From: Nereocystis luetkeana
Lineage: Eukaryota > Sar > Phaeophyceae > Laminariales > Laminariaceae
DNA length: 64,000 nt
NCBI GenBank assembly: GCA_031213475.1
Contig: JARUPZ010000030.1
Location: forward strand, 5,263,661 to 5,327,660
Direction of reading: 5' to 3'
Shown here: in pieces, positions 11,086 through 64,000 of the stretch
Numbering within the stretch: position 1 is the stretch's first letter
Layout: every line of letters begins with the position of its first letter
The notes under the pieces: generated by a model
Database searches by the model: none
What the model was told of the DNA's origin: nothing
What the model saw: the letters and a program-made list of their open reading frames with translations, nothing else
Position numbers and translations under genes: made by a program

Positions 11086-11755
11086 TTACTCCGGTAATGC
11101 CTCCACGTCATTCCTGTTAAACGCTTCCTTCGCCTCCGTGTTCACAGGCCCCGGACACTTGACCCTCACGCCCTCCCCGAGCTCGAAAGCGATCCCCCCT
11201 TCTTCTCCCCCCTCCACCCTGCCCCGGGGTCCGGACATCCGCACGGAGCTAGACCTCTGATACCGCACCCCCCTCATTGGCGCCGCGGACCCGACCCCCG
11301 TGCCCGCCCCCGCGCTTGATTGCCTTATCGGCATGCCCCCGGCGACGCTGCTCCCGAAAGCGGTGATGTCTGGGGGGGTTCCCGGCCCGCTCAGGACGCT
11401 GCTCACGCGGCGGTCAACCCCCCCGCCGTCCAGAAAGTCGTCCATCGTGCGTCCCGACCGGACGGGGCCGGAGCTCCCGAGCATGCTAGCGATCCCGATG
11501 GTGCCGCCGCTGTAGCGTCTGTCGACTCCGAAGGTTACGGACGCGGACCGCGCGTTGTCTGAGTCGGTGGGCCCTCCCCCCAGGCTGTGGTGGCGGCCCC
11601 AGCCGGCGCCCCCGACGCCGCCGGCGCCGGCGCTGCTGGCGTGGTGCGCGCTGCTGCTGCTGCTCCGGTCTTTGGGCTTGTGCCCAGAGAATGAGACCAG
11701 GGTGTCGGTAGGGGGGAGGGAGCCGCCGCGCCTGGCTATCGACTGCCACATGTCC
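11086..11755 (-). CDS. Exon 30: PDE terminal helix and Ser/Gly-rich tail, stop codon
   Basis: The acceptor TTTTTAACAG carries one nucleotide that completes Arg of 'LRRNR'. The sequence continues '[12 protein letters not shown]', the usual 'NR..W..i' end of PDE domains, then about 210 residues rich in Ser, Gly and Ala. The tail has two RRxS motifs (RRYS at about 11509-11520 and RRVS at about 11401-11412), consensus sites for cAMP-dependent kinase. TAA stop at 11086-11088. Confidence 0.88.
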
Positions 11756-11764
11756 CTGTTAAAA

Positions 11765-11800
<36 letters not shown>

Positions 11801-17800: not shown

Positions 17801-20800
17801 AACCCATCAAACCAATCAAACCAATCATCACAGACCAACCAGACCAAAATCAAGCCAGACATCACAAACCAACCAAACCAAAAATCAAAGCCAATCAAAC
17901 CACTCAATCCTACCGGTTCCTGCGTAGGTTGGGGAGGTACTCGTCCTCCAGGCCCGGCGCAATCGGCAGCAGCACTGTAAAGAACGGGATGAGGAAGGCG
18001 TCTATAAACCCGGGCTGCGAAGACGAAGGTGGGCCTTCCAGCACAGTCACCCGCAACCCCAAATGCCGCTCCTGAAAACAAGCCGAACCCAAACCACGTT
18101 GTCCCAGAGGGGTGAGGGCACCGTGCGGTATGGAGGGGAGGGGAGGGGGGGGGGGGGAGGGAAGGGAATGGGAGGGGGAGAGAGGGGATTGAAAAGGGTT
18201 GGCGGCGGCGATCATTACATGTAGACGACTGCTGGTGTGTCAGATAGGGGAGATTTCGCTTTGAGCGCTGCGCTCTCCCTTCGTATGGGGTACTGCCCTG
18301 CCCTGCCTTTCCTTTCCTTTCCTTTCCTTTCCTTTCCTTTCCTTTCCTTTCCTTTCCTTTCCTTTCCTTTCCTTTCCTTTCCTTTCCTTTCCTTTCCTTT
18401 CCTTTCCTTTCCTTTCCTTTCCTTTCCTTTCCTTTCCTTTCCTTTCCCTGCCTACAGATCCGTCCTCAAACTTACAGCAAAAACACGCCTCTTCGTACTA
18501 TAAAAATTACAGCATGGATCCTACCCCCCTCCTTTCACGCTATACGTAACCGCTCATGAATTTCCAAACAAGCCTGCTTATATCTACTGTAGTTATATAT
18601 AGTACCTGGTAGTGTTAATATTAACAGTGCTTTCTGTTTCTTTGCTCCACATCTCTGTTTTTTTTTTCATCATCAATTTCACTGTCCAGCCTGTATAACT
18701 CGTAGGAGGTTTTACCCTCAGCGATCTTCTGGACAAGCCGTGGTCACAGGTGTCGTCCCTTCTCCCTCCCGGTACGTGCCTTCATTTTTTGTCGCGCATA
18801 GGGTCCAGCATTCCCACTGCTCGTCGATTTTCATCGAATGTAGCCAACTTACGCTCTCGCGCTTTCCGCTAATCATTTTTTTATGGAAGAAAAAGTCCCC
18901 ATGAGCATGCACTCGGTGGGACTTGAACCCACGAAATTGATCTTGATAGGCACGCGGACCACCTACCAAGCCACCCGGGACGCATGTCTCTGTATACCAG
19001 CCTCTAGACACAATATATCCACCTTAAAACTCTCACATGGGACAGACAGATCATGTACAGATCATTCCTACTTGATCTAGATCTTCCAGGGCAGATTATC
19101 TGTGTGATCTAGCTCATGTTGCCGGGTGGGAGCCGTAAAATTTGCATGAGCTACGAGGGCTATTTCCTGGGTTGGATCTGTACTATATAGATCATCCTGC
19201 ACATCATTTCAGAACGGCAGGTCATGATCTACATAATCTATCTGTAGAGGATCTCTCTGTAGATGATATATCTGTAGATGATTTATCTGTAGATGATCTG
19301 TCCGACGTGTGAAAAGCCGCAAGCAAGCCTCTCAACACTTGTTACCACTCTGTCCGAAAAAAGAAGGATCGTATCGATTGAAAATTATTATACAACCTGT
19401 TCTAATACTTGGGAACAGAGTGGGCCAACACAAAGACAAGCGCTGTGCTCGTACAACAGTCCAGCGTAACCGCGCAGCAGTACATGTATAACGTCACGCT
19501 GCGCGCGTACTATCCAAGCCCTTGCCACTCAAAAATTATGATAGGGTAAGAAGTAGGACTACTATTACGTGGGACCATAGTTAATACCAGGTAGGACCTA
19601 CAGTATTAGCCGGTCGCCCCGGTGGTTCAAGTGGTTAACCTCGAATTCTACTTGTGTTTGAGTCCTGGGTTCGAGCCCCAGGTGGGTCGGACTTTGACTT
19701 TATTTGCAAAAAATAAAAAAAGGATTCAATTGTTGAGAGCGCCTTGCAGCGTGGGTAGGCACAATTCGATGCGAGTCGACGAGGGAAGAAAAGGCTGAAA
19801 TCTTCTCGCGATAAAAATGAAGGCACGTACCGTAGCGGGAAGGGGGGAGAAGAGCCTGCTATGTGACCCCGGATCTGAGTTACGAGTTGGAAGGAGAGAT
19901 AGAAGAATATGTGCGAAGATAATGAATGGGATGAGAAAAAAGAAGAAGAAAAGAACGGTATGCATAAAAACCTACATAGTTGACCATTTTTACTAATAAT
20001 ATTTGGTCCTATTAACTATGGTCCCCCGTAGTAATAATACACCAGCACACGGCATGGGTAACACGTAACAACTTTTTTTTTTCTTCTTGCTCCTCACATA
20101 AAGCATAATGCCCGATCGCAGCGATCTGTCCAACAAGAATGGGATGAACGATATGATAAGGCATGTGTATGCCTTGTAGGGCACCCTCAGTCTCGTTTGA
20201 GGATGCCCGTGCGAGGGCAGGAACGTTTTCGCCAAAAACAAACAAAGCCCACCCCTGTATACCACGCGTCATATTGTATGCTATGCGGGACATTCGGCAG
20301 TACTTGACTCTAATCACATGTACCTCTGCCTTAACCCCTTTAGAACCGCAGTCCCGTTTGGGGACAAAACTACTTGAAATTTGACTGGTTTGTCCCCAGA
20401 ACGGGACTGCGGTTCTAAAAGGGTTAACCCATTTGGGACTGCAGTTCCGTTGTGGGGACAAAATACTTGGGGGGTTATAGAGTAAAATACATGCTTCCGT
20501 ACAGTGTAGTGCTGAAAGCGGTTACATCTCCTTTGGCAGTCCTTTCATTAGCCGCCAAAACCACGATACTTCTGGACGAGCGCCCAGCCGTGAGCGTGAG
20601 CGTGAGTACAGCAGCAGCAGCAGCAGCACGGGGTAGGGAAGGTCATGTTGCTTTCGCCCCGTGCCGTCCAACCCCTTGCCTTCAACCATTGTAACAACTC
20701 GGACAACAAAGGTCACATCATTCCCCAATTACGCAGTGGTCGTTGCTGTAATAATTTTAATCTATTAATAGTCACTTTTTGTCGTCAAGTTTGCTCTCTG

Positions 20801-53800: not shown

Positions 53801-56800
53801 TTTTACTGACAATATTTGGTCCTATTTACTACGGTCCCCCGTAATAACATTCAATAAAAACGCCTCTTAATATTCGGGGACAAGAGTGCTAGTTTGTTTG
53901 CCCACCCTCCCCACCCTCCCCACCCTCCCCACCCTCCCCACCCTCCCCACCCTCCCCACCCTCCCCACCCTCCCCACTCTCCCCACCCTCTCGTACCCTT
54001 GCTCTTCCAGCGCCGTAAGCTCCCGCAGGAGCCGGTCCTTGTGACCGCTAATCGGGTACACTCTGTACAGGAACCACGTGGAGAACTCCTTGCCTATCAG
54101 GCTTGCTACCTTGAGGGCCATGAGCTGGCAGCTGTTCAGCCGGTCCGTCTGACGAGCAACAAAACGCGCGTTTGACGAGCACATCGGTGAGAATGAGTAC
54201 CAAAAAAAAAACATGCCGGAACAGGTCATGAACAAACCTTTGACGATCTGACCTTTTGAGAATTAACTGCGTTTGACGAGGCGTCGGGGTACAAAAAACA
54301 TGAACACAACGCTCGAAAAAAAAAAAAAAAACATTTGTCATGAGAACGAAAATCGTGTCCGAAACAAAATCATGACCAAACTACTGACGCCAGTATCAAA
54401 AACGGTTGTCTGTGCATGCCAATGTTAACAGTCGAAAGCGCAACAACCTGTTGACTCCACTGAAAAAAGAACCATCCACCTCAATCCAACCCCAAAACAC
54501 AATCGATCACACACCAATTAAAGACATCCCGAAACAAAAATAATTCCAACACAATAAAAAGCCGAACAACGAAAAAAGTCGAGCATCGGCGCAAGCGGAA
54601 GCAAACTCAATGCTCAAGCTAATCATCTACACACCATACCACTTGATACATGCACGCATCAGACAGATTCCAATAAATGGATAGCGTCAAAAGTTGTTGA
54701 CCGCTCAAACAACAAACAAAAAACACCTCAACAACAAAAAAAAGTGACTCAACGATAGAATAAAAACATGCTGGTATGTCGAACAGAACGGAACACAAAA
54801 ACGAAACTTGACAAAACAAACACACTGACTGTTCGTGAACCGTTGGCAGCACATTAAAAAAATATAAAACAAGAAAGAAACAAGAAACGAAACAAGCGAG
54901 CGAACAAATAAGCATTCACAGCCAGCAAAACAAAAAAAAAACGTGGCGTGAAGGGAAAGCAAACAAACAAAGTATCGGGTTTGAATGGCACCTAATGTTA
55001 CTCCTATAGCTCCTCCATCCATGTCAGGCTGCCAAAAAATAATTTAACACCCCGAATGTAAACCAAACAAGCAGCACAAGCAGAGCAAACGAAAACGAAA
55101 AAGCACGACCAATCAACCAACCAACAAAAAAACAAGAAAAAAAGACCAAAACCAACCATCCGAAAAACAAACAAACAAACAAGAAAATAAACACCACAAG
55201 CGAAACAAACAAACAAAACGGGAAAAAACACACACGAACGAATGAACGAACAAACGAACAAACGAAACAGACAAAAAACGCAAACAAACGAGAAGTTGGA
55301 TTTGATACAGTCTCCGTGTTTTCCTGTCCCGGGGAGTTTGCTTTCTACAACACCTGTTAACCCCCTTTAGAACCGCAGCCCCGTTTTGGGGACAAACTAC
55401 TGAAAAACTGAGTGGTTTGTCCCCAAAACGGGACTGCGGTTCTAAAGGGGTTAATCGTGGCGTTCGTTGTACGTCGACGGCTGATGATACTAATGTACCT
55501 GGTAGTGTTATTGTAGTTATGGTATGGTATGGAAACTTTCGATAGATGGAAACGTCTTGTTCGAAGTTTCGACAGTATCGCACATATCGGAAAAGTCTTT
55601 ATTCTCCATTCCCTGGCGTCCCCGTGTTTTCTATGCTTCCGAGTATCAAATATCGAAATCGATCGGACGATTGTTTTCTTGATTTATCGGCATCGTATCG
55701 CTTTTCTTTTGTTTTCGTCGGTATCGTATCGTATCGAAGTCGATTCCGACATCGATATTCAATATCAGATGCTAACTGACCAACCAACCAACCAACCAAC
55801 CAACGGAAACAACCAACACAAACGCACACAAAACGACCAGCACAAACGACCTAAAACGAACAAAAACAAATAAAGACACCAAACACACAAAACCAACACA
55901 CAAAAACACAATACCCCCCACCCCCCCCCGGTCGTTGAAAACCCGCCGTGCTCCGTCTCGGCATTGTAGGGATGCGAGAGTCTATTGGCCATACGACCAC
56001 GGCCATGAATGAGATCGAGTACATCTCTCCTATCGAGTACACCCCCCCCCCCCACCTCCCCTCCGCGCCCGTCCGACCTGCCCCACCCCACCCCCATCCG
56101 CTTCCACCACACCTGGGACGTGAGCAGCGCGTTGAGCTTCTCGGGCAAGAGAGATGCGCTGAGACTGAAGTTTTCCGTCAGGGACACGTGAACGGCGACA
56201 TCAATGTTGTTGTGAGACCCCCCCTGATCTCCCTCCTCTGATCTGATCTCGATGTACCGCAACAGCCTAGGCTCGACCATCTGGAACGAAAACCAAGCGC
56301 ACGTGGGAACAGGGGAGTTGATACGTAAATTCCGAAATTCAAATCAGGTGGAAATGGGCACGGGGAGTCAAAAACTACAGAGAGGGTGTTCGTAGAAAGA
56401 GGCAATGGGGGGGGGTGGGGGGTGGGGGGAGGGGTGTACTCGATAGGAGAGATGTACTCGATCTCATGCATGGCCGTAGTCGTATGACCATAGACCCTCG
56501 CATCCCTACAATGCCGGGGGGAGGGGGGGGGGGGGGGGAGTTGTTGCAAGAATCCAACCTACCTGATCTCCATGTACCGCAACAGCTTAGGCTCAACCAT
56601 CAGAACAGCCAGGCGCACACCGGGGACAGTAAGTCATGTATTGCAGAAGGAGTTGTAGAGACAGGCGTCGGCCGGGGGGGGGGGCGTACTCATTTGTTGC
56701 TTGCCATAGTCATTTGACCATTGACCACGCATCCCTTCCGAGACGGAGCATCGTTCCTACTCGTGATAGATGAGGAGGAGGCGGGGGGGGGGTAAGAGAA

Positions 56801-59800
56801 AACAACAATTGATCTGATCTCGATATACTGAAACAGTCTAGGCTCGACCATCAGAACAACTAGGCGCGCACGAGAGGCAGGGATAGGTTATAGAGGGAGT
56901 GTTCGTACAGGGAGAGGGGGGTACTCGATCTCATGCATAGCCGTAGTCGTCTGACCATAGACCCTCGCATCCCTACAATGCCGGGACGGAGCACGTCGTA
57001 TTTCACCGACCAGACAGATATTTGCTTGCACCAAGCGCGAAGCAACGTGAGGTGTTCGGCGAGTCGCATGAAGGGTGAGCTGCATCCTACTAAGAACCGC
57101 TTTTGAGGCGGGTTTTCTTGCATATGAATGACAGCGTCAATGAATTGATTTATTTTCTGGTGTGGCCACTTCCAGAGAAAGCAATGGGTTCACCATCTAA
57201 CTGTCTTGTGGGTGCCTTACCATACACACTACGTGATACGATCATCCCCCTTGCGCGGACTTGAGGTTCTTCCTGCACATAAATGATAGAACTCCACCGC
57301 CAGCCGCCGCCAGCCGTGGTATCCGCCAAAACAGGACAAAGAAACGGTACCCTGGTTGTCTAGCTCACGCAGAGAGAGGCGTGTTTTACAGCATCGTCGA
57401 CAACCGACGCCAACCCAACATACCTATATACATACATATTATATATACCAGGTAGAGGGGGGGGGGGGGGGAGCCGTGTGCATGTGTTAATACCTCTATA
57501 GAGAGGAGAGAGGGGGGACATAAGAAGAGAGGGGCAGGGATAAGAGATACAGGCTACACATAAATCGAGCGAGATTACGGAGGGAGACACATCGAAAGAG
57601 AGAGAGAGAGAGAACTGCAGTACTATGGAGACTCACAAAAACCAAAATGCAGTCAGAAGCCTTGCAGAGATCCAATAAAAAAATGACGCGGAGACAAAAA
57701 TACAGGGAGGATGAGAACCTCCCCCCCCCCCCCCGAAAACACAGCGGCCTGCCACTAAAAACCACCGCACCTCAGACACATGTAGATATTTCAAGGCACA
57801 CAAAAGTTTCCGATCTGTATGATCTGTACGATCTAGCTCATGTAGCCGGGTGGGACCGGTATAATCTGCATGATCTATGATCGTAGCGAATGTTTCCTGG
57901 GTTGGATCTGTACTGTACAGATCCTGCACAGCCTTCCACAACGGCGGGTGAGGAACTAGGTGATTTACAGTAAAATAGATACTAGATAATAGATATATAC
58001 GAGTAGATAGATAGATAGATAGATAGATCATGATCTGTATGATTTGTCTGAGGTATGGACCCTTTCATCGATGCAAAAACGTGTCCAACCCAACTGCCAG
58101 GCACTCCCCCCCAAAAAAAAACGTGGCATGCAGTTCTACTCAAAACATTATTTAGGACTGCAGTCCCTTTTTGGGGACAAACCGCCTACAATTTGAGTGG
58201 TTTGTCCCCAAAACGGGACTGCGGCCCAAAGAAAGATTGAAGGCCACGAGCCATCTCGAGAGAGGGGACATGAGCTCGGTGAGCATCAAAAGGCATACAG
58301 AAACAGGAAATTCAAGGTATAATTCCGACTATTTCTTGGCCTCCAAACGGGAGTGTGTGGGTGCCAGCCCTCCAGGGCAGAAACTAAGTTATACTTCAAG
58401 AGATGGGACACGAGGTCGGTGGTCATTTAGGGACAACTAACGGCCTACAGAATCCACGTTTCGGAGACGGATGCTTGTAACTCGAGTTGAAAAGTCATTG
58501 CAAGTGGGAAAGGGGGGGGGTGCTAAGTTACCTTGAGATGGGAGACGAGCTCGGTGATCATCAGCGGGTTGCCCGAGCACAGTTCCTCGACGAGGCCGAA
58601 GAGAGAGTCGCTGATGTCGACCACGTTGTCGCCCAACTTCTCCGCCACCAGACGCTCCACCTCCTCCGGCGGGGCGCCCTCTATTTTCAAGAAACGCACG
58701 TGCTCCAGCTGCACCAGCGCCTGTCGAACGGAGGGACGAGTGAGTGAGCGAGCGAATCGAAGAGAACGAACAGACACAACGAAAAGGCAAGATAGGAGAA
58801 ACAACGAAACGAACAAAAGCCACGAACGGATTGGCAGAAGGAAATGAGTGAACGAACAGACCACGAACGGATTGGCAGAAGGAAATGGGTGAACGAACAA
58901 AAGCCACAAACGGATTGACAGAAGGAAATGAGTGAACGAACAGACACAACGAGGGACGAAACGACAGAAGCAACGAACGAAACCACGAACGAAACGACAG
59001 AAGAAGGAAATGAACAAGAGTTGAAATGACCGACCAAACGAACGAACGAACGAGCGAAATAATAAACGGAAGGAATTAACAAAAGGAATTAACAAAAGGA
59101 ATTAACGCAAGGGATCCCTCTGGTACAAACATGAACAACAAAGTTACAGTCAGAACGAAACAAAGCACGAAACTATAAAAAAGACGGAACGAAATAGTTG
59201 AGAAAACGAAAAAAAAGAGACCGAAACACCGCCGTGTAGCATGAAATGACAGAATGAAACAAAGAACAAAAAAAAATCCGAATTATATCCCTGGTCGTAG
59301 CGAATATCAGAACGAAACGAACAACAAATACCGAACTAAGCAGAGAACAAAATGAATAACAAAGAACAAAAAAACGAACTAAACAGCAGCAGAATAACGA
59401 ACCGGATGAATGACGACTGAACCAACAACTCTTCGCGAGGGAGGCACTCGCAGGACACAAGCAAGCTCCAACCATACGTACCGCGCAGCATGCAAGCCTG
59501 GGTATTGACCTCGCCGCCGGCTTGTGTATTTGCATAGACGTACCAGGTACGCACATATTTTTAATGAAAGACGTAAAAAACAACAAACCTTGTACGGCGA
59601 TGACCTATCCAATGATCGGAAACAACCCAGTAATACAACAACGGCCCACGGGGCCAACGTGGAAAGAAGAAAAACAAACTATTTGGCACGTGGGATAGTA
59701 AATAGGACCTACGGTACACACGAAAAACATGTATATTCACCTATCTTCACTATTAATAACACTATTTGGGCCTGTTTATCAAGGTCCCCCGTAATAGACC

Positions 59801-62056
59801 AGGAGCGAATCCATGTAAATAAAAAAAAAAAATTAAAAAAAAAGAAACAAAACGGGAAGCAAAACAAGAGAAACATGCTTGATTTCGAACGCACGGTAAT
59901 TACCTCGGTACCTCGTACTCGTACTCGGAGAGGGGGGGGGGGGGGGGAAGCGAAAATGGCGCGGTAATGCTGCAGCGAAACGAAAAGCTGGTAAAAAAAC
60001 AACCAAGAGTGAACCACTCAACAAATAGAAACGACACAGAAGCGAAACGAAACGAAACACAAAAAGGTGTCCCATTCCAGCAATAAGTCACCTCGTAGTC
60101 GGGGGGAATGGAGGCGAAGATGGCGCGATAGTGCGCCAAGGGCCGGAAGGAGAGGATCAGCATCATCGGTAATGGTGCACCCATCGGACCACCTATGTAA
60201 CACACACGTTAGCAGAGGCACCGTAGCGTGACATGCGGCATAATTGGGGTTGGCACAGCGCCGGCAGAAGGGCCAACGCGGGGTGTGTGTGGGGGGTACT
60301 CATGCCATGCATGGCCGTAGTCGTATAAGCATAGACTCTCACACCCTTACAACGTCGGGACGAAGAACGTCGGGCTTTCATCGACTAGGCAGACATCGCT
60401 TGCACCAAGCGCGAAACGCCGTGGGGTGTTAGGCGAGTCGCATGCGAGGGGGAGGGGGGGATACTCGATAGGATGGATGTACTCGATCTCATGCATGGCC
60501 GTAGTCGTATGACCAATGAAGGGGGGAGGGGGCGCAATTCGGCAACGATGCACCCATCGGATCGCTTAACATCTATTGCGTACACAAAGCACAGGCGCGC
60601 CGGGACGTGGCGTGTGGTATAATTGGGGTTTGCACAGTGGCGGTGGAGGGGCAAGCATCAATGACAACCATCGGACCGCGCAACAGCTAGCTTTTGACAC
60701 ACAGCACAGGCACCGGGGAGTAACGTGCGGCACAATGGGATTTTCTCCGCGGCGGCGGGAAAAGAGGGAAGGGACAACATCGGAAACGATGTACCCATCC
60801 GACCGACGAAAAAAGTGTCCTGCATGCATCAACATACACACTCACACATAGACACAGGCGTCACGACATCTGACCCGCAGCAATGATCAGGGTTCGTAAA
60901 GCGGAGGGGGGGGGGGGGGCGTGGAACAAATAATCGAAGCTTCGCGTAGCGATCGGTTGCGGCTTCCGACGCACAGCAAGTCTCGCTCTTGTTTCGTACT
61001 CATGTTTTTACCGTCAACGCTACCTCGTTTTTTTGTTTTTAGTTACGAGCGAAGCAAGCTACGAATTTACAGCGGCTTCAACCCTTTCGGTACCGCACTG
61101 CACACCAACCCATTCATGACTCTAATTCCAAATGAATTTTGTCCCCACAGCGGAAATACAGGTTCTCAAGGCCTAAACGAGTTACGTATAGGGCATGCAT
61201 TACTTTCGAGCAAGGTGAAGCCGGAGATCCGCGCCGTCCGATCGAAAAACCTCCGGTAATTTTTTCGCCTTTCCACCAGCACACACATTCACTACCCACC
61301 ATTACCGCTGTTACCGCTAAAGTTACCGCCACTGTTACCGCTTCCAATACCGCTGGTATATAACGCACTGGTACTGTTACTGCTGCTACCGCTGAAGTTA
61401 CCGCTGGTTACCGCACTGCTGAAGTTACCGCCGCCGATACCGCTGGTTACCGCACTGCCACTGCTACCGCTACCGCTGGTACCGTTGCTAATGGTTCGCA
61501 TTCTGTACGTTAAAAGCAAATCGTTACCGCTGCTCCTGCCTGGTATCCTGCACGTTAACGTTACCACCCACTGCTACTGATTGATACTATCCCTGTTAAC
61601 TGATTTTACTATATCTAGTGGTTTGTATCGTGGGTTGTATGTTCACCTGTAGCGACGGCTAGCGCGAGTGTCCAGCTATCCTTGTCGAGGAATTGGGCGT
61701 CGTCGATCACCACCTGAACAAACAAAAAAATAGAAATATTACAGACAGAACATAAAACGGGTGGAACCTAAACAACAGAAAAAATACGTACTCGTACCAG
61801 GTATATGTTTACTCGTAACAACGAAACAAAAAAGTTCCAAAAGTACAAGAAGAGAAAAGAAAAAAAACAGAAAAGCAAAACGTAAAAAAGACGAAAAAAA
61901 AGCTGTCGCTAGGAACTCGTGCAGCAGGATATGTATAACTGCCGTTAAACTTGTATTCGTTGTTGATTGGTACACGGTGGTAATACGTGGTCGTCGTTGT
62001 TGTGTCGTCACTACTACCAGTAGTACTAGTAGTACTAGTACTACTAGTACTACTAG

Positions 62057-62090
<34 letters not shown>

Positions 62091-63221
62091 GCTACTACTA
62101 CTACTACCGCACACGAGAGAGAAGCATCTGAATCAGAGATCACGCTCAGATCCGTCACCGTTGTGTCGCGTACGATTATTAGTATTATTACGGGGGACCA
62201 TAGTTAATAGGACCAAATTTTGTTAGTAAAAATGGTTAAATATATAGGTTTTTATGTATACCATAGGTCCTGTTAACTATAGCCCCCCGTAGTAGTACTA
62301 CCATTAATCCATTAATATTAATAGTACGACGTACTCATACCGTAGCACACACCACACAGCAACGACACCATTACTGCAGCATCATTACATGCCTGCGAAC
62401 AGTACTGGTATCCTTCTGGAGTCTGGAGTCGACCTCCGGCGGGAAAAAACAAAGCAATGAACAGCGGGATGCTGCTGTTGCTGCAGCTGGAGCTAGCTAT
62501 GCTGCCGACCGAGTTTTAACTGTCTCGCCTTGGCGCAGCAATCGCACAGCAAAAAACACACCAACAGGACGGAGGCCAGAAACGCAGTTCCGGTGGTTCA
62601 CATTTGCGGTTCTGGGCGCGCAGCGGCGGTGGCGCTGTTCACCTGCTTGTCATTACATCGATATATAGCAACCCGTGCTTGCTCGTGTTTCTTTCTTCAT
62701 GGTCTTTCAAACCCGGGGACACAAAACCTATGTTGATATTCAGAAACGCCTTACAATATACTACCAAAACGTCAAGGCGGGGGCGGGCTTCAGGCATTTC
62801 TTGGGGAACCCTATTCTTTTGGCGTCGTCGAAACTAGTAGCTCACATTCGCTCGTGAAAACCTCCCCCCGCAATCCTTTCAAGTAGGCACGATGACCAGA
62901 CAGCCAATATTCACCTCTGCGGTCAAGTATATTCACGCGTGGGAAACTGTAAAAAATAACTTATCAAAAGCACAGCAAATGGAACGCCAAAAAACGTACC
63001 GGGTACGAAATAGCGCGTTGCATAATACCAGGTGCACATGTACGTGTCTGTTGTTCCTGTTGTTCCTGCTCACCACGCGCGGCTTTTTCTTGGCCATGTT
63101 CTTGATGAGCTGCAGCAGAATCTTGAGCTTGAGCCTCTCCTCGTGGCCCACGCTGGAACCTTCCTCAAACTCGGACTCGTCCGACTCGTTGCCATTACCT
63201 CCGTCGGCAGAAGAGCTAGAG
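11086..63221 (-). CDS. Giant multidomain gene: sAC-type NTPase - PH - C2 - GYF - class I cyclic-nucleotide phosphodiesterase (5' partial, 30 exons in window)
   Basis: The coding segments listed separately join in one frame of about 1,644 residues, with compatible splice phase at all 29 junctions. Domains in order, numbered from the first full codon in the window: NTPase with Walker B '[10 protein letters not shown]' (about 30-370), linker (372-424), PH-like (about 440-568), C2 (about 585-730), Ser/His/Pro linker (757-942), GYF-like (about 965-1014), PDE catalytic domain (about 1038-1430), Ser/Gly-rich tail to 1644. The PDE part should hydrolyse cAMP and/or cGMP. PH and C2 suggest recruitment to phosphoinositide or Ca2+-bound membranes. 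In soluble adenylyl cyclases the NTPase module follows tandem class III cyclase domains, so a cyclase is expected upstream, outside the window. Domain calls rest on recognised motifs. At four junctions (start of the 27-codon exon, start of the PH exon, start of the linker exon, start of the 22-codon exon) I chose the acceptor partly to keep phase, so two adjacent genes are not fully excluded. Confidence 0.8.
14046..14147. mobile_element. MITE family 1 copy (TA-flanked, CGGGGGACC termini)
   Basis: This copy of about 100 bp has terminal inverted repeats CGGGGGACCATAGTTAA / TTAACTATG(G)CCCCCCG and an AT-rich middle containing 'atataggtttttatgtat'. It is flanked by TA, the target duplication expected for Tc1/mariner-like non-autonomous elements. 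Confidence 0.85.
14262..14542. mobile_element. MITE family 3 copy (TCGGACAGATGATC termini, about 280 bp)
   Basis: Inverted termini TGTCGGACAGATGATC ... GATCATCTGTCCGA enclose GATC-rich sequence with the internal landmark 'ggctcccacccggcagcatg'. The same plan recurs at 19033, 29925, 50144 and 57790. Confidence 0.75.
16450..16925 (+). mobile_element. Interspersed repeat of about 480 bp ending GAGTAC-poly(C) (family 4)
   Basis: The stretch matches 56910-57395 in opposite orientation along nearly its whole length, from 'gtaaaacgcgcctttc' through 'ctagacaaccagggtaccgt' and 'ggtgcaagcaatgtctgcct' to 'catgcatgagatcgagtac', followed by a poly(C) run. No coding frame or TIRs were recognised. The constant C-tail suggests a retroposon. 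Confidence 0.7.
17914..18071 (-). CDS. Exon 29: PDE C-terminal segment with the nucleotide-selective Gln
   Basis: The exon encodes '[13 protein letters not shown]' and '[20 protein letters not shown]', ending 'LPNLRRNR'. The Gln of 'Q.GFId' is the invariant purine-binding Gln of class I PDEs. An in-frame TAG follows directly if intron is read, but the donor CG|GTAGGA lets it splice in phase 2 to the last exon, giving the standard 'NLRRNRDMW'. Confidence 0.93.
18305..18446. repeat. (CCTTT)n microsatellite
   Basis: There are about 28 uninterrupted 5-bp units. On the strand of the giant gene it reads AAAGG in the intron between exons 28 and 29. Frames through it are artefacts. Confidence 0.97.
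18655..18981 (-). mobile_element. tRNA-derived SINE, nearly full length
   Basis: On the minus strand the element opens with a tRNA-like head: an A-box-like TGGCTTGGTAGGTGG, then GTGGG-TTCAAGT-CCCAC, a perfect 5-bp T-arm with B box GGTTCAAGTCC. The acceptor stem does not pair, so this is not a working tRNA gene. A body of about 250 bp follows, ending in an A-rich tail. It shares body sequence with the copies at 1-145 and 19607-19954. Confidence 0.8.
19033..19305. mobile_element. MITE family 3 copy
   Basis: It starts 'gggacagacagatcatg', ends 'gatgatctgtccgacg' and contains the reversed landmark 'catgttgccgggtgggagcc'. Confidence 0.7.
19567..20030. mobile_element. MITE family 1 copy, split by the SINE and carrying a TACCAGGTA insert
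   Basis: The left terminus (gtgggaccatagttaata) and right terminus (ggtcctattaactatggt then cccccg) are those of the 105-bp family. The element is interrupted at 19607-19954 by the SINE. TACCAGGTA stands at 19585-19593 where other copies have only TA. Confidence 0.85.
19607..19954 (+). mobile_element. tRNA-derived SINE nested inside a MITE
   Basis: The tRNA-like head (D-arm GGTT...AACC, T-arm CTGGG-TTCGAGC-CCCAG, B box GGTTCGAGCCC) is followed by a body sharing 'aaaatgaaggcacgtaccg' with the other copies and by an A/G-rich tail. It is flanked by near-identical 7-mers ACAGTAT (19600-19606) and ACGGTAT (19955-19961), which read as a target-site duplication within MITE sequence. Confidence 0.8.
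20333..20475. repeat. Foldback repeat family 2, one full and one partial copy
   Basis: The inverted arms are 'gaaccgcagtcccgtttggg' with its continuation gacaaa, and 'tttgtccccagaacgggact' with gcggttc. Each arm is bounded by CCCTTT / AAAGGG and the loop is about 20 bases. A half copy follows from 20428. Such a palindrome would form a stable hairpin in RNA. Confidence 0.8.
21072..21173. mobile_element. MITE family 1 copy
   Basis: Both termini (cggggggccatagttaatag and ctattaactatggtcccccg) and the AT-rich core with 'tgttagtaaaaatggttaaa' are present, flanked by TA. Confidence 0.85.
21289..21675 (-). CDS. Exon 28: PDE insertion loop and '[12 protein letters not shown]' metal-binding segment
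   Basis: The exon has 129 codons. It begins '[15 protein letters not shown]' and ends '[20 protein letters not shown]' plus '[11 protein letters not shown]', which contains the fourth PDE metal ligand (Asp of AD.S.P). Between them lies a Gly/Ser/Ala/Pro-rich insertion of about 70 residues not usual for the family. Acceptor AAAATCAG, donor GTGCGC; phase 0 on both sides. Confidence 0.93.
22030..22310. repeat. GGGA-rich low-complexity block
   Basis: Irregular GGGA/GGAG units with a duplicated 'ggaagcg(ga/aag)gagg..acgaggaagcgg' motif, in the intron between exons 27 and 28. Confidence 0.9.
22888..22962 (-). CDS. Exon 27: PDE 'ILATxMxxH' helix
   Basis: The 25 codons '[20 protein letters not shown]' and 'THIKK' match 'R..ii..ilATDM..H......'. 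The usual Asp of ATDM is Glu here. The exon is too short for long-ORF tracks and was located from the missing motif and flanking CGCCGACAG / GTAAGG. Phase 0 on both sides. Confidence 0.92.
23822..23924. mobile_element. MITE family 1 copy, opposite orientation
   Basis: Termini cgggggactatggtaaatag and tactgtggtcccccg enclose the core in reverse orientation ('acacaaaaacctata', 'gacaatatttg'). Confidence 0.8.
24502..25327. mobile_element. 826-bp TIR element with TAA target duplication (PIF/Harbinger-like, non-autonomous)
   Basis: The termini GACCTATGCCAATGG and CCATTGGCATAGGTC are perfect inverted repeats, flanked on both sides by TAA (24499-24501, 25328-25330). A second copy lies at 44692-45520. 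No transposase frame is recognised inside; the longest frames are broken and GC-poor. A TWA duplication is typical of PIF/Harbinger elements, which is the basis of the tentative class. Confidence 0.8.
25501..25635 (-). CDS. Exon 26: PDE 'LYNDxSPLExHHLA' segment
   Basis: The exon encodes '[20 protein letters not shown]' and '[14 protein letters not shown]'. This is the next conserved block of class I PDEs, 'YNd.S.LEnhHla..f.ll'. Acceptor GTTCTCCAG, donor GTGCGA; phase 0 on both sides. Confidence 0.95.
26332..26553 (-). CDS. Exon 25: PDE catalytic core with HNxxHAxDV and HDxDHPGxxN
   Basis: The exon encodes '[20 protein letters not shown]' and '[20 protein letters not shown]'. These carry the general-acid His of YHN, the metal His of HA.DV and the metal His-Asp of HDxDHPG that define class I PDEs (PDE1-11 type). 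Acceptor CCTTGCAG, donor GTAAAA; phase 0 on both sides. Confidence 0.97.
27332..27508 (-). CDS. Exon 24: N-terminal helices of the PDE domain
   Basis: The exon has 59 codons, phase 0 on both sides, acceptor TCGCACAG and donor GTGGGG. It encodes '[20 protein letters not shown]', which matches the 'W.FDiF.l......l......i....gl...F.i' start of class I cyclic-nucleotide phosphodiesterase catalytic domains. Confidence 0.9.
27509..28165 (-). repeat. Degenerate GATGTGAT/GATACGATA repeat in the intron before exon 24
   Basis: From 27509 to about 27925 the sequence is made of imperfect 'gatgtgat', 'gatacgat' and 'gatatcat' units, with a double TACCTGGTACCAGGTA at 27762-27777. Confidence 0.85.
28166..28233 (-). 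CDS. Exon 23: short Ser/Asp linker exon
   Basis: The 22 codons ('[20 protein letters not shown]' and two more) join the GYF and PDE domains. The donor GTGGGC is good. The acceptor GCAATCAG has little pyrimidine tract and was chosen because it restores phase between exons 22 and 24; CTTCCAG, 27-28 nt further into the exon, is an alternative but gives the wrong phase. Confidence 0.5.
28858..28987 (-). CDS. Exon 22: GYF-like domain core
   Basis: The exon encodes '[20 protein letters not shown]', then '[12 protein letters not shown]'. The order 'Y-x-D-x-x-x-x-x-x-GPF-x-x-x-x-L-x-x-x-x-x-x-GY' matches GYF / GYF_2 domains, which bind proline-rich peptides. The Pro-rich linker of exon 19 is a possible internal ligand (inference). 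Acceptor GTGCGCAG, donor GTGAGC; phase 0 in, phase 1 out. Confidence 0.8.
29062..29312 (-). repeat. Two truncated family 4 copies in tandem
   Basis: 'gtgtactcgataggaga(g)atgtactcgatctcatgcat' appears at 29069 and again at 29170. The second copy runs on to 'ttgcttgcaccaagcacaaa'. Both truncate the element at its end away from the C-tail. Confidence 0.75.
29925..30215. mobile_element. MITE family 3 copy
   Basis: It starts 'ccgacagatagatcatg', contains 'ggttcccacccggcaacatg' and ends near 'gatctaactgattcgtccga'. It lies in the intron between exons 21 and 22. Confidence 0.7.
30289..30373 (-). CDS. Exon 21: helix and first strand of the GYF-like domain
   Basis: The exon encodes '[20 protein letters not shown]', then 'DAHTYFCK', where the aromatic-rich end is the first strand of the GYF-like domain continued in the next exon. 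Acceptor GCCTCAG, donor GTAAGC; phase 2 in, phase 0 out. Confidence 0.8.
30400..30960. repeat. Degenerate ACATCAGAC repeat
   Basis: Imperfect 'acatcagac', 'catcacaca' units run through the intron between exons 20 and 21. Confidence 0.85.
31138..31246 (-). CDS. Exon 20: helical linker
   Basis: The exon encodes '[20 protein letters not shown]', then '[11 protein letters not shown]'. Acceptor CGCACACAG, donor AG|GTACGG; phase 1 in, phase 2 out. No domain is recognised. A tandem duplication of 109 bp sits in the intron just upstream. Confidence 0.75.
31411..31632. repeat. 109-bp tandem duplication containing a family 5 repeat
   Basis: Two near-identical units, 31415-31523 and 31524-31632, share 'cgtttgttgcttgccgtagt' through 'cacctccaacatttggtcgc', differing at very few bases. 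The unit includes the family 5 core 'gaccacgcttccct'. It lies in the intron upstream of exon 20. Confidence 0.85.
31900..32009. mobile_element. MITE family 1 copy with internal TACCTGGTA insert
   Basis: Termini are intact. Where other copies read 'aaatatataggtttt' this copy reads 'atatata-CCTGGTA-ggttt' (TACCTGGTA at 31956-31964), an exact 7-bp addition at a TA. Confidence 0.85.
32561..33009 (-). CDS. Exon 19: low-complexity His/Pro/Ser linker
   Basis: This 449-nt exon encodes a linker rich in His ('[13 protein letters not shown]'), Pro and Gly, with one helical patch ('[18 protein letters not shown]') and a basic end '[10 protein letters not shown]'. The acceptor CGCATCCAG fits phase 2. The donor (GCTG|GTGTTT) is the least certain end; GG|GTGGGT a few bases upstream is an alternative. 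No domain is recognised and disorder is expected. Confidence 0.65.
34073..34241 (-). CDS. Exon 18: end of the C2 domain and linker
   Basis: The exon encodes '[20 protein letters not shown]', then '[16 protein letters not shown]'. 'WY.L.......G.i.l.v..' is the final strand of C2 domains. Acceptor TCGCCCAG, donor GTGAGA; phase 1 in, phase 2 out. Confidence 0.85.
34625..35125. repeat. (TTACAG)n hexamer arrays
   Basis: Two arrays (34735-34825 and 34985-35110) of TTACAG/CTACAG units, separated by a family 4-like 'catggtcatacgactatgga' fragment ending 'gagtac' and poly(C). It lies in the intron between exons 17 and 18. Confidence 0.85.
35608..35719 (-). CDS. Exon 17: C2 domain, '[15 protein letters not shown]' strand
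   Basis: The exon encodes '[20 protein letters not shown]', the strongly conserved C2 signature 'V.D.D....DD.lG...i.l'. The first Asp of the usual 'D.D' pair is replaced by Asn (WNHD), which may weaken Ca2+ binding. Acceptor TCGCCAAG, donor GTAAGT; phase 0 in, phase 1 out. Poly(G) runs lie immediately downstream in the intron. Confidence 0.9.
36290..36475 (+). repeat. Truncated family 4 copy with poly(C) tail
   Basis: It runs from 'tatacgactcgcccaacacc' to 'cctatcgagtacaccccccac'. It contains the 'ctccgtcccggcattgtagg' and 'catgcatgagatcgagtaca' landmarks. Confidence 0.75.
36575..36750 (-). CDS. Exon 16: C2 domain core
   Basis: The exon encodes '[20 protein letters not shown]', then '[13 protein letters not shown]', 'LRIQ'. 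This follows the C2 pattern '.dPYv.v.l......T.......NP.W.e.f.F.v....l.i.V'. The Asp pair in 'DLDDQG' is in loop position, but whether Ca2+ is bound cannot be judged. Acceptor TTCTCGCAG, donor GTGGGC; phase 1 in, phase 0 out. Confidence 0.9.
37505..37611 (-). CDS. Exon 15: linker and first strand of the C2 domain
   Basis: The acceptor is AACGGTCAG and the donor GTGAGG; phase 2 in, phase 1 out. It encodes a linker ('[19 protein letters not shown]'), then '[11 protein letters not shown]', a typical opening beta strand of C2 domains. The preceding intron is about 6.7 kb, the longest in the gene. Confidence 0.75.
37612..37745. repeat. 60-bp tandem duplication just upstream of exon 15
   Basis: 'acggttacatttttcgaggc' plus 'gcgaacagcaacgaacgg' appears twice in succession, starting one base before the exon 15 acceptor region. 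Confidence 0.85.
38037..38420. repeat. Direct repeat of about 110 bp, period about 270 bp
   Basis: 'tataaactcgtttgc', 'tggacggtcgctgtgagggc' and 'accatgattcgcga' occur at 38042-38150 and again at 38312-38420 with about 85% identity by eye. Confidence 0.8.
41174..41275. mobile_element. MITE family 1 copy
   Basis: Termini cgggggaccatagtaaatag and ctattaactatgcccccccg with the standard core, flanked by TA. Confidence 0.85.
41523..41617. repeat. Foldback repeat family 2 copy
   Basis: The arms 'ggaccgcagtcccgtttggg' and 'ccgggactgcggttctaaag' are separated by a short loop. Confidence 0.8.
42475..42960. repeat. Tandem repeats of about 66 bp
   Basis: Units carry 'tactctggggtactcgggta', 'ggtacccgggtat' and 'caagagtgtgcaccatac'. 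The first two are nearly identical, later ones diverge. It lies in the long intron between exons 14 and 15. Confidence 0.88.
42960..43275. repeat. Cluster of three foldback repeats (family 2)
   Basis: Successive copies at about 42960-43049, 43050-43135 and 43184-43275 each have a 'CCCGTTTTGGGGAC' arm and its complement. The second and third are diverged. Confidence 0.78.
43594..43704. mobile_element. MITE family 1 copy with TACCAGGTA insert in its right terminus
   Basis: The right terminus reads 'ggtcctaCCAGGTAttaact' where other copies read 'ggtcctattaact'. TACCAGGTA is at 43677-43685. The rest of the element is a close consensus copy. Confidence 0.87.
44167..44265. repeat. Foldback repeat family 2 copy
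   Basis: The arms 'ggaccgcagccccgttttgg' and 'ccaaaacgggactacggttc' lie 50 bp from exon 14 of the giant gene. Confidence 0.78.
44316..44375 (-). CDS. Exon 14: end of the PH C-terminal helix
   Basis: This short 60-nt exon extends the helix as '[18 protein letters not shown]'. The acceptor is a long C-rich tract ending CTCAG, the donor GTGAGT. Phase 2 on both sides matches exons 13 and 15 exactly. It is too short for long-ORF tracks and was found from phase and splice signals. Confidence 0.75.
44692..45520. mobile_element. 829-bp TIR element with TTA target duplication, second copy
   Basis: It has the same terminal 15-mers as the copy at 24502-25327, flanked by TTA on both sides (44689-44691, 45521-45523). 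The interior is nearly identical, with small indels in T and A runs, which implies recent spread. It lies between exons 13 and 14 of the giant gene. Confidence 0.8.
46264..46403 (-). CDS. Exon 13: PH-like domain, late strands and start of the C-terminal helix
   Basis: The exon encodes '[13 protein letters not shown]', '[20 protein letters not shown]'. The pattern 'F.f.ae...E...W...I' is the end of a PH domain, with the invariant helix Trp present. Acceptor TTGGGCAG, donor GTGTGT. Phase 0 in, phase 2 out. Confidence 0.85.
46528..46735. repeat. GCTATGCTCT-type minisatellite
   Basis: Imperfect 5-bp units (TGCTA/TGCTC/TGTTA) lie between exons 12 and 13. Cys/Leu/Ala-only frames on the plus strand are artefacts. 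Confidence 0.95.
46779..46910 (-). CDS. Exon 12: PH-like domain, beta strands 3-5
   Basis: The exon encodes '[20 protein letters not shown]' followed by '[14 protein letters not shown]'. This is the typical PH pattern 'W+kR.fvL....L.y......p...i.L'. The Lys/Arg cluster around WKKR sits where phosphoinositide-binding PH domains contact lipid head groups. Acceptor CTGTGCCAG, donor GTGCGT, 44 codons, phase 0 on both sides. Confidence 0.85.
47874..47985. repeat. Tandem repeat of about 30 bp
   Basis: Four units of 'gatttgcggatccaaacgg' with 'acattagat'-type spacers. Confidence 0.85.
48344..48445 (-). CDS. Exon 11: Arg/Ser-rich lead-in and start of the PH-like domain
   Basis: The exon has 34 codons. 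The acceptor GCCTCCCAG is one of two possible and was chosen for phase 0; the donor is GTGAGA. It contains the RRRS motif 'TTRRRSDS', a basophilic kinase consensus, and ends 'QPVQQKWTE', which flows into '[11 protein letters not shown]' of the next exon. Confidence 0.65.
48744..49100. mobile_element. MITE family 3-related GATC-rich block
   Basis: The block is rich in 'agatcagacagatc' units and ends 'gatctgtagacgatctgtccgaca', the family 3 terminus. The landmark 'cacccggcaac' is missing, so the copy is partial or rearranged. Confidence 0.5.
49103..49180 (-). CDS. Exon 10: basic linker exon with GC donor
   Basis: The exon has 26 codons ('[20 protein letters not shown]' and on), phase 0 on both sides. 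The acceptor is CGCTGGCCAG. The donor is CAG|GCAAGT, the classic GC-AG intron consensus. No domain is assigned. Confidence 0.7.
49585..50020 (-). repeat. Truncated family 4 copies
   Basis: One fragment spans about 49610-49800 ('accctcgcatccctacaacg' to 'ctttctcgcacacggatgac'). Another, at 49925-50020, starts in a G run and reads 'gtactcgataggagagatat'. Confidence 0.65.
50144..50483. mobile_element. MITE family 3 copy
   Basis: It starts 'cggacatacagatcacg', contains the landmark twice ('gctcccacccggcaacgtga' and a variant) and ends 'gatgatctgtcagg'. It is slightly longer than the others through an internal duplication. Confidence 0.7.
50612..50692 (-). CDS. Exon 9: short linker exon
   Basis: The 27 codons include '[20 protein letters not shown]'. 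The donor GTATGT is strong. The acceptor (GGCGTGGAG) has a weak pyrimidine tract and was chosen because it keeps phase 0. No domain is recognised, but the amphipathic helix suggests a continuation of the helical NTPase tail. Confidence 0.6.
51127..51256 (-). CDS. Exon 8: 'F-x-H-x-x-x-x-E' helix, end of the NTPase module
   Basis: The exon encodes '[20 protein letters not shown]', then a charged coiled-coil-like helix with '[19 protein letters not shown]'. This matches 'F.Halh.E..Y..ml..qR..lH..IA' found after the ATPase core in ADCY10-like proteins. Acceptor ATCTGCAG, donor GTGCGT, phase 0 out. Confidence 0.85.
51295..51725. repeat. Tandem duplication of about 215 bp including two family 5 repeats
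   Basis: 'gttgaggttcaacaaacca', 'accgggcgg' (variant) and a G run, followed by 'gtactcatttgttgcttgcc'-type sequence and 'gcatccctttcgagacgggg', occur at 51295-51480 and again at 51505-51720. Copies are moderately diverged. It lies next to exon 8. Confidence 0.75.
52378..52479. mobile_element. MITE family 1 copy
   Basis: Termini cgggggacaatagtaaatag and ctatttaataggctcccccg; the core has 'attgttagtaaaaattgg'. Confidence 0.8.
52720..52878 (-). CDS. Exon 7: NTPase module continuation
   Basis: The exon supplies '[18 protein letters not shown]', then '[15 protein letters not shown]'. Joined to exon 6 it gives '...LEEQG-FLVEVQ...', as expected in this family. Acceptor GTGCTTCCAG, donor AA|GTGGGT. 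Two nucleotides are carried over on each side, and they complete Gly and Lys codons. Confidence 0.8.
52975..53425. repeat. (AAAGCAAGC)n minisatellite
   Basis: About 45 units of a 9-bp repeat, open in several frames on both strands because the unit is a multiple of three. It lies in the intron between exons 6 and 7. The long Leu/Ala/Cys or Lys/Gln/Ala frames here are not genes. Confidence 0.97.
53741..53843. mobile_element. MITE family 1 copy, opposite orientation
   Basis: The left end is degenerate (tgcgggacaccatagtaaat), the right end intact (ctatttactacggtcccccg). The core is reversed ('tttaccagtttttactgaca'). Confidence 0.8.
53900..53990. repeat. (CCCTCCCCA)n minisatellite abutting the exon 6 donor
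   Basis: About 10 units of 9 bp. On the coding strand the unit is GTGGGGAGG, so each unit presents a GT. It starts 4 bases after the proposed donor GG|GTACGA. Confidence 0.95.
53997..54148 (-). CDS. Exon 6: winged-helix-like region of the NTPase module
   Basis: The exon encodes '[20 protein letters not shown]', then a segment ending '[13 protein letters not shown]'. This fits the family pattern 'DrL.....lLk.AS.iG..F......L....L...G'. Phase 0 in, phase 2 out at donor GG|GTACGA. A 9-bp minisatellite begins directly after the donor. Confidence 0.85.
55361..55456. repeat. Foldback repeat family 2 copy, best preserved
   Basis: The arms 'agaaccgcagccccgttttg' and 'caaaacgggactgcggttct' are nearly perfect inverted repeats, with the whole unit bounded by AACCCCTTT / AAAGGGGTT. 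Confidence 0.85.
55930..56060 (+). repeat. Truncated family 4 copy with poly(C) tail
   Basis: 'ccgtctcggcattgtaggga' to 'ctcctatcgagtacaccccc'. It lies about 50 bp from exon 5. Confidence 0.7.
56113..56280 (-). CDS. Exon 5: NTPase module continuation
   Basis: The exon has 56 codons, acceptor TTCGTTCCAG and donor CAG|GTGTGG, phase 0 on both sides. It encodes '[18 protein letters not shown]' and later '[20 protein letters not shown]'. In sAC-type ATPases the equivalent stretch ends with 'hP..h..hh..ri', just before the winged-helix-like region. Degenerate partial copies of its 5' edge lie upstream at about 56565-56610 and 56815-56865. Confidence 0.8.
56425..56520 (-). repeat. Truncated family 4 copy between G runs
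   Basis: 'ggtgtactcgataggagaga' to 'cccctcgcatccctacaatgc'-like sequence, flanked on both sides by G runs. Confidence 0.65.
56685..56760 (-). repeat. Family 5 short repeat after a G run
   Basis: 'gcgtactcatttgttgcttg', then 'accattgaccacgcatccct', 'ccgagacggag'. Read on the minus strand it ends AAATGAGTAC-poly(C), like the copies at 51418 and 51648. Confidence 0.7.
56910..57395 (-). mobile_element. Family 4 interspersed repeat, second long copy
   Basis: This is the reverse-complement counterpart of 16450-16925. On this strand it begins after a G run ('agaggggggtactcgatctc') and ends at 'cagagagaggcgtgttttac'. Confidence 0.7.
57790..58052. mobile_element. MITE family 3 copy
   Basis: It contains the reversed landmark 'catgtagccgggtgggacc' and a GATA microsatellite, and ends 'gatttgtctgagg'. 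The termini are diverged. Confidence 0.6.
58150..58230. repeat. Foldback repeat family 2 copy
   Basis: Arms 'gactgcagtccctttttggg' and 'cccaaaacgggactgcggcc'. Confidence 0.75.
58532..58720 (-). CDS. Exon 4: NTPase lid/sensor region
   Basis: The exon has 63 codons, acceptor GTTCGACAG and donor GTAACT, phase 0 on both sides. It contains '[20 protein letters not shown]' and '[18 protein letters not shown]'. The 'S.GNP....EL...L' motif is a hallmark of AAA_16/STAND ATPases, including soluble adenylyl cyclases. Confidence 0.85.
58838..58950. repeat. Tandem repeat of about 42 bp
   Basis: 'aacggattggcagaaggaaa' followed by 'tgagtgaacgaac' is repeated three times, within a broader GAAC/GAAA-rich intron stretch. 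Confidence 0.85.
59690..59793. mobile_element. MITE family 1 copy, decayed
   Basis: The left end is shortened (cgtgggatagtaaatagg), the right end 'caaggtcccccg'. The core is reversed and diverged. Confidence 0.7.
60092..60192 (-). CDS. Exon 3: NTPase strand after Walker B (sensor region)
   Basis: Acceptor TTACATAG, donor GTGACT. The 34 residues include '[20 protein letters not shown]' and 'PPDYE'. The hydrophobic strand ending in an Arg-Pro pair resembles the 'hhhhhhhRP' strand of ADCY10-type ATPases. Phase 1 in, phase 0 out. Its 5' edge and flanking intron are present in further tandem copies at 60540-60905. Confidence 0.8.
60173..60905. repeat. Array of about 115-bp units repeating the exon 3 edge and its upstream intron
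   Basis: Units begin near 60173, 60540, 60657 and 60781. Each starts with a version of 'gcacccatcggacc' (the first bases of exon 3, read on the plus strand) and continues with 'acacagcacaggcaccg...cgtggcgtg...ggcataattggggttt'-type intron sequence. The first unit contains the working acceptor. A family 4 pair separates units 1 and 2. Confidence 0.75.
60285..60520 (-). repeat. Two truncated family 4 copies
   Basis: At 60291-60445 the repeat runs from 'gtactcatgccatgcatgg' to 'ggcgagtcgcatgcgag'. At 60460-60515 it restarts as 'gatactcgataggatggatg'. Each begins right after a G run. Confidence 0.65.
61300..61580. repeat. GTTACCGCT-type simple repeat
   Basis: Irregular 6- and 9-bp units of 'ttaccgctg'/'ccactgttaccg', open on the minus strand as a Ser/Gly-only frame. 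Treated as intronic repeat. Confidence 0.85.
61647..61713 (-). CDS. Exon 2: Walker B strand of the NTPase
   Basis: The exon encodes [21 protein letters not shown], which matches the 'hhhhDDAQ.hD..S' Walker B signature of sAC-type and bacterial LuxR/AAA_16 NTPases. The DD pair would coordinate Mg2+ and activate water. Acceptor TTGTTCAG, donor GTGAAC. It starts in phase 0 and leaves one nucleotide (G), which completes a glycine codon with exon 3. Confidence 0.85.
62028..62107. repeat. (CTA)n microsatellite
   Basis: 'tactagtac' units turn into about 15 CTA triplets. Confidence 0.95.
62189..62291. mobile_element. MITE family 1 copy, close to consensus
   Basis: Termini cgggggaccatagttaatag and cctgttaactatagcccccc; the core 'tggttaaatatataggtttt' is intact. 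Confidence 0.87.
63074..63221 (-). CDS. Exon 1 in window: acidic/Ser segment and helix leading to Walker B
   Basis: The acceptor is TTTTTTCAG and the donor GTGAGC. The exon enters with one nucleotide (so the previous exon leaves two) and ends in phase 0. It encodes 49 residues: a Ser/Asp/Glu-rich stretch, then a basic-hydrophobic helix ([20 protein letters not shown]). That helix is the usual lead into the Walker B strand of AAA_16/STAND NTPases of the soluble adenylyl cyclase type. No Walker A motif is seen between here and position 64000, so the P-loop must lie in an upstream exon beyond the window. Confidence 0.75.
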
Positions 63222-63689: not shown

Positions 63690-64000
63690 GTAGACTTTTA
63701 ACCGGTGATACCTGGTTACGGTTACTTCGTTAGGTCACTGTATCAATAGCTACCTGGCTGCTTTTATGGCTCGGTTACGCACGGTTATTGTTACTCGAAT
63801 ACTGGTCACTTGGTTACGGTTACTGGGAAATTACTTACATGTCTAGACCTTGGTTACTTGGTTACGCCTACTGGGTACCTGGTACTTGGTGAGGGTTACC
63901 TCGGCCACCCACGGTTACAATTGTTTGCTCCTGGAACCTCAGTTATCTGAGTATTTGATTGTATGGTCACGTCTACTGGCTACTGGGTACTTCGTTACGC
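63690..64000. repeat. GGTTAC-rich repeat at the window end
   Basis: Irregular 'ggttacttggttacg' units fill the last 300 bases. No Walker A or other coding block is visible here, so it is read as intron of the giant gene. Confidence 0.8.

Follow-up and report, generated by a model that had tools for sequence, protein, structure and literature searches.

The locus raises the question of whether one gene of Nereocystis luetkeana can encode both the synthesis and the breakdown of a cyclic nucleotide. The window, that is, the whole 64,000-nucleotide stretch of DNA analysed (C30:5263661-5327660, contig JARUPZ010000030.1), lies in a scanned assembly of 465,085,209 bp. A further 70 kb beyond it (C30:5327661-5397660) was included, and positions there are given as extended coordinates (C30 position minus 5263660). 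Our answer is that a minus-strand gene of ~101 kb (C30:5274746-5376249) probably fuses a soluble adenylyl cyclase (sAC)-type cyclase to a class I phosphodiesterase (PDE), with NTPase, PH, C2 and GYF-like regions between them. The expected order, which we likewise consider probable, is C1-C2, a long linker likely to hold more exons, a STAND NTPase, PH, C2, the GYF-like stretch and the PDE. The exons, the frames within two chains, the domains and their conserved residues are observed directly at the locus.

Seven seed exons supplied the codon usage for scoring coding segments on the minus strand, and the window chain was assembled by hand from these scores, the open frames and the listed splice sites. 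The resulting model has 29 exons running from 63221 to a TAA at 11086, joined through 28 junctions in a single frame of 1615 residues, with the terminal TAA as its sole stop. The original prediction had the strand, both ends and the single frame right, and overcounted the exons (30) and junctions (29). It had also called a single GC-AG border. One GC donor is present, after 49103 (CAG/gcaagt); the other 27 donors in the window are GT and all acceptors are AG. Window introns have a median length of 1330.5 bp and a maximum of 6704 bp. The least certain borders are those of exons 5, 18 and 19, the acceptor of exon 19 scoring -1.6. With the upstream sequence included, the whole model comprises 41 placed exons with 38 GT and 2 GC donors and no internal stop. 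The two GC sites in this set of 40 donors, at window 49103 and at extended 96591, lie in an identical context, CAG/gcaag. The window yielded no tRNA and no Rfam match.

Exon joins restore conserved domain sequence at several junctions, for example at the junction of exons 24 and 25 within the PDE alignment. The window-plus-upstream chains were also subjected to a phase test, in which textbook splice scores, untrained on this gene, were used to select the best donor and acceptor around exon cores. The phases agree at 30/39 junctions, where one-third would be expected (p 3e-8), and disagree at 9/39; both sites are identical to those of the model at 22/39. Since the exon cores were taken from the model, these counts back the frame and not the individual borders.

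The first eight exons of the window encode the STAND NTPase. Exon 1 (63074-63221) covers the interval between Walker A and Walker B with an acidic insert, and exon 2 (61647-61713) carries a Walker motif. Exons 3 (60092-60192), 4 (58532-58720), 5 (56113-56223, uncertain acceptor) and 6 (53997-54148) continue the module, exon 7 (52720-52878) reaches its end region and exon 8 (51127-51256) closes it with FTHGFMMEM. A Walker A loop had been anticipated beyond position 64000, and an exon encoding EGLPGAGKT lies on the minus strand at extended 76477-76235. It joins the window in frame through one further exon (extended 64382-64261) and exon 1, giving 1737 residues to the stop and placing Walker A and Walker B in one frame. 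On the window protein alone, the Pfam AAA_16 profile matches at E 0.0056 over its last third only; after addition of the upstream exons it scores 35.6 bits against a cut-off of 32.6, in agreement with the predicted NTPase type and its Walker B motif at 61.7 kb. Among 7991 scored candidates, two proteins match the NTPase region at E <= 1e-3, namely P0019 (1.3e-8) and P0020 (5.0e-4). Both have Guanylate_cyc followed by AAA_16, plus TPR, with two cyclase stretches in P0019 and one over threshold in P0020.

The class III cyclase proposed for the then unseen upstream part is present as a tandem. Ten exons from extended 112589 to 92668 join through nine junctions, one with a GC donor, in one frame of 505 residues. 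They were picked by hand in correction of the chain script, which returned 81, 50 or 29 upstream exons according to the penalty, many of them spurious; because the count varies in this way, the script lends the upstream exons no independent support. For the third cyclase exon we chose the start at 104911 over the script's 105056, since GGDVFK then joins FAGDALIVLW as in ADCY10. The ATG chosen, at 112589, is merely the earliest in-frame candidate once a stop codon in its exon has been passed, and an earlier exon is possible. Pfam Guanylate_cyc matches the 505-residue chain in two stretches (2.4e-18), and the best four of 36 solved structures are human ADCY10 chains (E 1e-40, residues 6-100 and 126-422). 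A six-frame Guanylate_cyc scan of the genome, in which 8 candidates were scored, missed these ten exons. In the alignment, in human-chain numbering, Asp47, Lys95, Asp99, Lys144, Lys334, Arg416 and Thr405, the last of which reads the adenine, are all kept. Of the bicarbonate residues, Lys95 is kept and Arg176 is replaced by Phe. Apart from adenine reading by Thr405, the roles of these cyclase residues are those given in PMC12867704 and PMC12250328. A scan of the placed exons for membrane segments found no 19-residue window of at least 1.6 in the 505-residue cyclase part; the four such windows in the remaining placed exons all lie within the PDE.

Between the NTPase and the PDE lie two confident domains and one marginal one. 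Exon 9 (49103-49180, with the GC donor) precedes the PH domain, and exon 10 (48344-48445) supplies a basic stretch that reaches the Pfam PH match. The domain itself occupies exon 11 (46779-46910) and, for its second half, exon 12 (46264-46403), and ends in exon 13 (44316-44375); the match spans residues 411-506 (1.1e-7, 32.8 bits against a curated 25.1). C2 starts in exon 14 (37505-37611), after the 6704-bp intron, continues through exons 15 (36575-36750) and 16 (35608-35719), and matches at residues 549-643 (4.9e-18, 65.7 bits against 22); exon 17 (34073-34241) lies directly past it. The positions that usually serve as calcium ligands are mostly occupied by other residues, so that calcium-independent binding appears likelier than calcium-dependent binding. 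A low-complexity linker follows in exon 18 (32572-33009, borders uncertain) and exon 19 (31138-31308, poor acceptor). The PH-C2-GYF middle originally proposed thus holds for PH and C2, whereas GYF, whose region starts in exon 20 (30289-30373) and extends through exon 21 (28858-28987), fails the Pfam curated score (E 0.005, 16.9 bits against 25.7). GPF is present in this stretch; the signature Trp and GYF read His and GYI, and the region is for that reason GYF-like at most. We consider it a probably degenerate stretch to which the GYF label applies weakly and marginally.

The C-terminal part is a PDE. Exon 22 (28166-28233) is a linker, and exon 23 (27332-27508) encodes the N-terminal part, where the phmmer alignment to PDE4B/4D begins at residue 1028. 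Exon 24 (26332-26553) carries metal-binding motifs including CHDLDHPG; it is followed by exons 25 (25501-25635), 26 (22888-22962) and 27 (21289-21675, which includes an insert). The invariant glutamine is found within SQPGFID in exon 28 (17914-18071), and exon 29 (11086-11755) holds the PDE end, a low-complexity tail and the TAA; its 222 residues match nothing in Pfam even at E 10. PDEase_I matches residues 1088-1382 at 1.7e-63, and alignment and motif positions place HNxxHAxD, HDxDHPG, the distal Asp and the invariant Gln. The closest solved structures are PDE4B and PDE4D (E 1e-44, with the first 1417 residues as query), and the best 60 of 198 distinct structure matches all fall in the PDE part and are all PDEs. 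The equivalent of PDE4 Asn321 is Ser.

Whether these parts belong to one gene depends on two joins, between cyclase and NTPase and between exons 13 and 14, which would be made on the basis of phase and order. Both fall at domain borders, so that the integrity of the domains is no test of them. The gene might be split at the second, so that a sAC-type cyclase-NTPase-PH gene would end in exon 13 or beyond it, while C2-GYF-PDE would form a gene of its own with its start at exon 14 or before it. The longest intron of the window does coincide with this border, a stop codon would overlap the exon 13 donor if it were left unspliced, and exon 14 has an in-frame Met. Poly(A)-like signals also exceed expectation, with 4 AATAAA and 4 ATTAAA in the 6.7-kb intron against ~1.6 of each if bases were used evenly; the 3.2-kb intron preceding exon 28 likewise lies above its expected 0.8, with 2 AATAAA and 1 ATTAAA. 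The exon 13 donor (CAG/gtgagt), however, has the top score of the 28 window donors (12.4) and matches exon 14 in phase, the intron is otherwise free of minus-strand coding segments that pass the threshold, and further introns are long as well (6158 and 11852 bp). We regard a split here as rather unlikely. A division of the locus into one gene for the tandem cyclase and another for NTPase-PH-C2-PDE, within the 16.2-kb interval from extended 92668 to 76477, strikes us as quite unlikely. This interval has no settled chain of linker exons, and it holds a large Ser/Gly-rich open frame (2 kb, extended 85752-83715) and a retroelement-like relic. Against such a division, the order of cyclase then NTPase recurs in P0019 and P0020, and in human sAC a STAND domain with a P-loop is predicted C-terminal to C1-C2, according to PMC12802110. 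The two sides also share a strand, and phase-consistent chains cross the interval, a weak form of support given the free choice of small exons. Small linker exons offered by the script between 92.7 and 76.5 kb were rejected because two stretches belong to a retroelement-like open frame; such frames were recognized by eye (MCPCGKAIESRTHVVGECEMYKEER) at extended ~90.2-91.2 kb.

Two further explanations concern the integrity of the gene and of its product. The very long introns and many repeats could point to an assembly error or a decayed gene; with 41 placed exons free of internal stops, a contig of 7.18 Mb and zero N across the window plus 70 kb upstream, this is very improbable. Alternatively, the fusion may be real and one catalytic half inactive, with the PDE or the cyclase serving a regulatory role, or the product may not be cAMP, a reading compatible with the others. 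The Ser at the PDE4 Asn321 equivalent would fit a non-working half. The metal-binding motifs and invariant glutamine of the PDE are kept, however, as are Asp47, Lys95, Asp99, Lys144, Lys334, Thr405 and Arg416 of the cyclase, and we consider this explanation unlikely.

Several features of the surrounding sequence were recorded along the way. A 37-bp repeat, ATGCATGAGATCGAGTACATCTCTCCTATCGAGTACA, occurs in six copies, none with more than a single mismatch, and in both orientations (29072-29108, 29172-29208, 36430-36466, 49940-49976, 56005-56041 and 56435-56471); all copies are intronic in the model and the repeat is absent from shuffles. Neither the viral nor the bacterial/archaeal collection yielded an exact copy of its 29-bp core. 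A 443-bp array (52985-53427) of the 9-bp unit AAGCAAGCA (49.7 copies, 96% matches) sits in the intron that separates exons 6 and 7, and a perfect CCTTT array lies at 18306-18447. Two similar intronic stretches of open frame on the plus strand, at ~24617-25144 and 44619-45406, are perhaps copies of a mobile element. Downstream of the gene (C30:5253661-5263660), what is apparently the next gene shows up as coding segments on the minus strand that carry IQ-like motifs (AITIQRAVRGFSARRLRAWLKI).

Orthologues with the same domain order had been proposed as a check; none was found in three protein searches, each of which scored ~8000 candidates of 0.55-1.75x query length, and this limitation makes the missing orthologue weak evidence. 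The search with the first 1410 residues gave 18 proteins and that with the PDE query gave 3, all PDEs without the other domains of the fusion according to their Pfam lists. A scan of genome contigs for relatives found none among the candidates it scored. In a 9.5-kb contig filed as viral (IMGVR_UViG_3300032278_003949), positions 2815-3021 encode a distant PDE-like stretch, which aligns to residues 3-68 of the exon 24-25 query with 36% identity. In the N. luetkeana assembly, PDEase_I exon matches number 15 at five loci; those within the gene include C30:5289974-5290153 (exon 24) and C30:5289164-5289298 (exon 25). The other four loci were rejected as paralogues of the fusion, being at most 48% identical over short stretches and having nothing PH-C2-like in their 3-kb loci. 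Guanylate_cyc exons (5e-9 and 2.7e-5) at C21:2381379-2401911 apparently mark another class III cyclase gene. It was set aside as a paralogue, as it appears by eye to be another cyclase type and tblastn against the two hit loci was empty; over 120 kb around them, tblastn gave weak or low-complexity matches only (best E 0.003). The genome scan also recorded 68 light-harvesting exon matches, the mark of a photosynthetic organism.

The nearest known system is ADCY10, with which the model shares a tandem C1-C2 pair (human ADCY10 being the best solved match) and, further along the same strand, a STAND-type NTPase that has both Walker motifs, A and B, and may belong to the same protein. Unlike ADCY10 and P0019/P0020, it continues after the NTPase into PH, C2, the GYF-like stretch and PDE, and shows no TPR match; unlike ADCY10 it also has Phe for Arg176 and a long, unsettled linker ahead of the NTPase. 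Within the PDE, the catalytic motifs and the best solved matches (PDE4B/4D) are those of PDE4, whereas an insert of ~60 residues in exon 27, estimated from alignment gap sizes, and the Ser at the Asn321 position depart from it. Fusions of cyclase and PDE are already known, as the original prediction stated. CAPE (COMBINED AC with PDE) is described for plants whose sperm are motile, and proteins resembling CAPE for Saprolegnia, Achlya and Thraustotheca (PMC5159850 and PMC8115329). CAPE likewise places a class III cyclase and a class I PDE on one protein, but it has an N-terminal PDE and a C-terminal AC, whereas the present model opens with a tandem sAC-type cyclase, continues with NTPase-PH-C2 and closes with the PDE. 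In the diatom Seminavis robusta, eight pheromone-responsive guanylate cyclase (GC)/PDE fusions are described in PMC8027222 (see also PMC6688387), again with cyclase and PDE in a single polypeptide. As described there, these are receptor-type cGMP enzymes with an extracellular stretch, in contrast to the sAC-type tandem with ATP-contacting residues seen here; the placed exons, which were scanned from the chosen ATG onward, show no membrane segment. No paper that joins PH, C2 and PDE to a sAC-type cyclase turned up among the listings and abstract openings of an open library short of most subscription journals; the original prediction likewise was aware of no such fusion with a PH-C2-GYF middle. 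The sAC-type/NTPase/PH/C2/PDE combination is new to the searches made.

How such a protein would work can be sketched from its domains. The C1/C2 pair, which keeps the metal aspartates and ATP-contacting residues, would make cAMP, and the NTPase may gate it, a function it is suspected to have in sAC. PH and C2 would anchor the protein to a membrane or scaffold, and the attached PDE would clear cAMP where it is made, so that the pulse is brief, local and self-ending. The most likely role is to supply cAMP in a self-limiting way from a membrane or scaffold, under the gating of the NTPase; here we infer the single transcript, the activities, the specificity for cAMP, the location and membrane binding, and the mode of control. 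With Phe at Arg176, bicarbonate switching is not expected by the logic set out in PMC12867704, and control by pH or another signal appears likelier. According to the same paper, most sACs of non-mammalian animals are missing Lys95, Arg176 or both of these residues, and the sAC of sea urchin and salmon is controlled by pH. A more specific version is possible, and we advance it tentatively: a closed-loop sAC, gated by pH or ATP and not by bicarbonate, in which tandem cyclase, STAND NTPase and PDE would be held at a membrane through PH/C2 and the state of the NTPase would set the balance between making and destroying cAMP, producing self-ending local pulses.

If the locus does encode one protein, it would be a naturally occurring protein on the sAC frame that acts as both cAMP source and cAMP sink, and would open to direct test the confinement of cAMP when one covalent chain both makes and degrades it. 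It would also stand as a separate architecture beside the cyclase-PDE fusions of plants, Saprolegnia and diatoms. Its cyclase, lacking Arg176, may further serve as a non-animal test of the recent claim of PMC12867704 that most non-mammalian sACs escape bicarbonate control.
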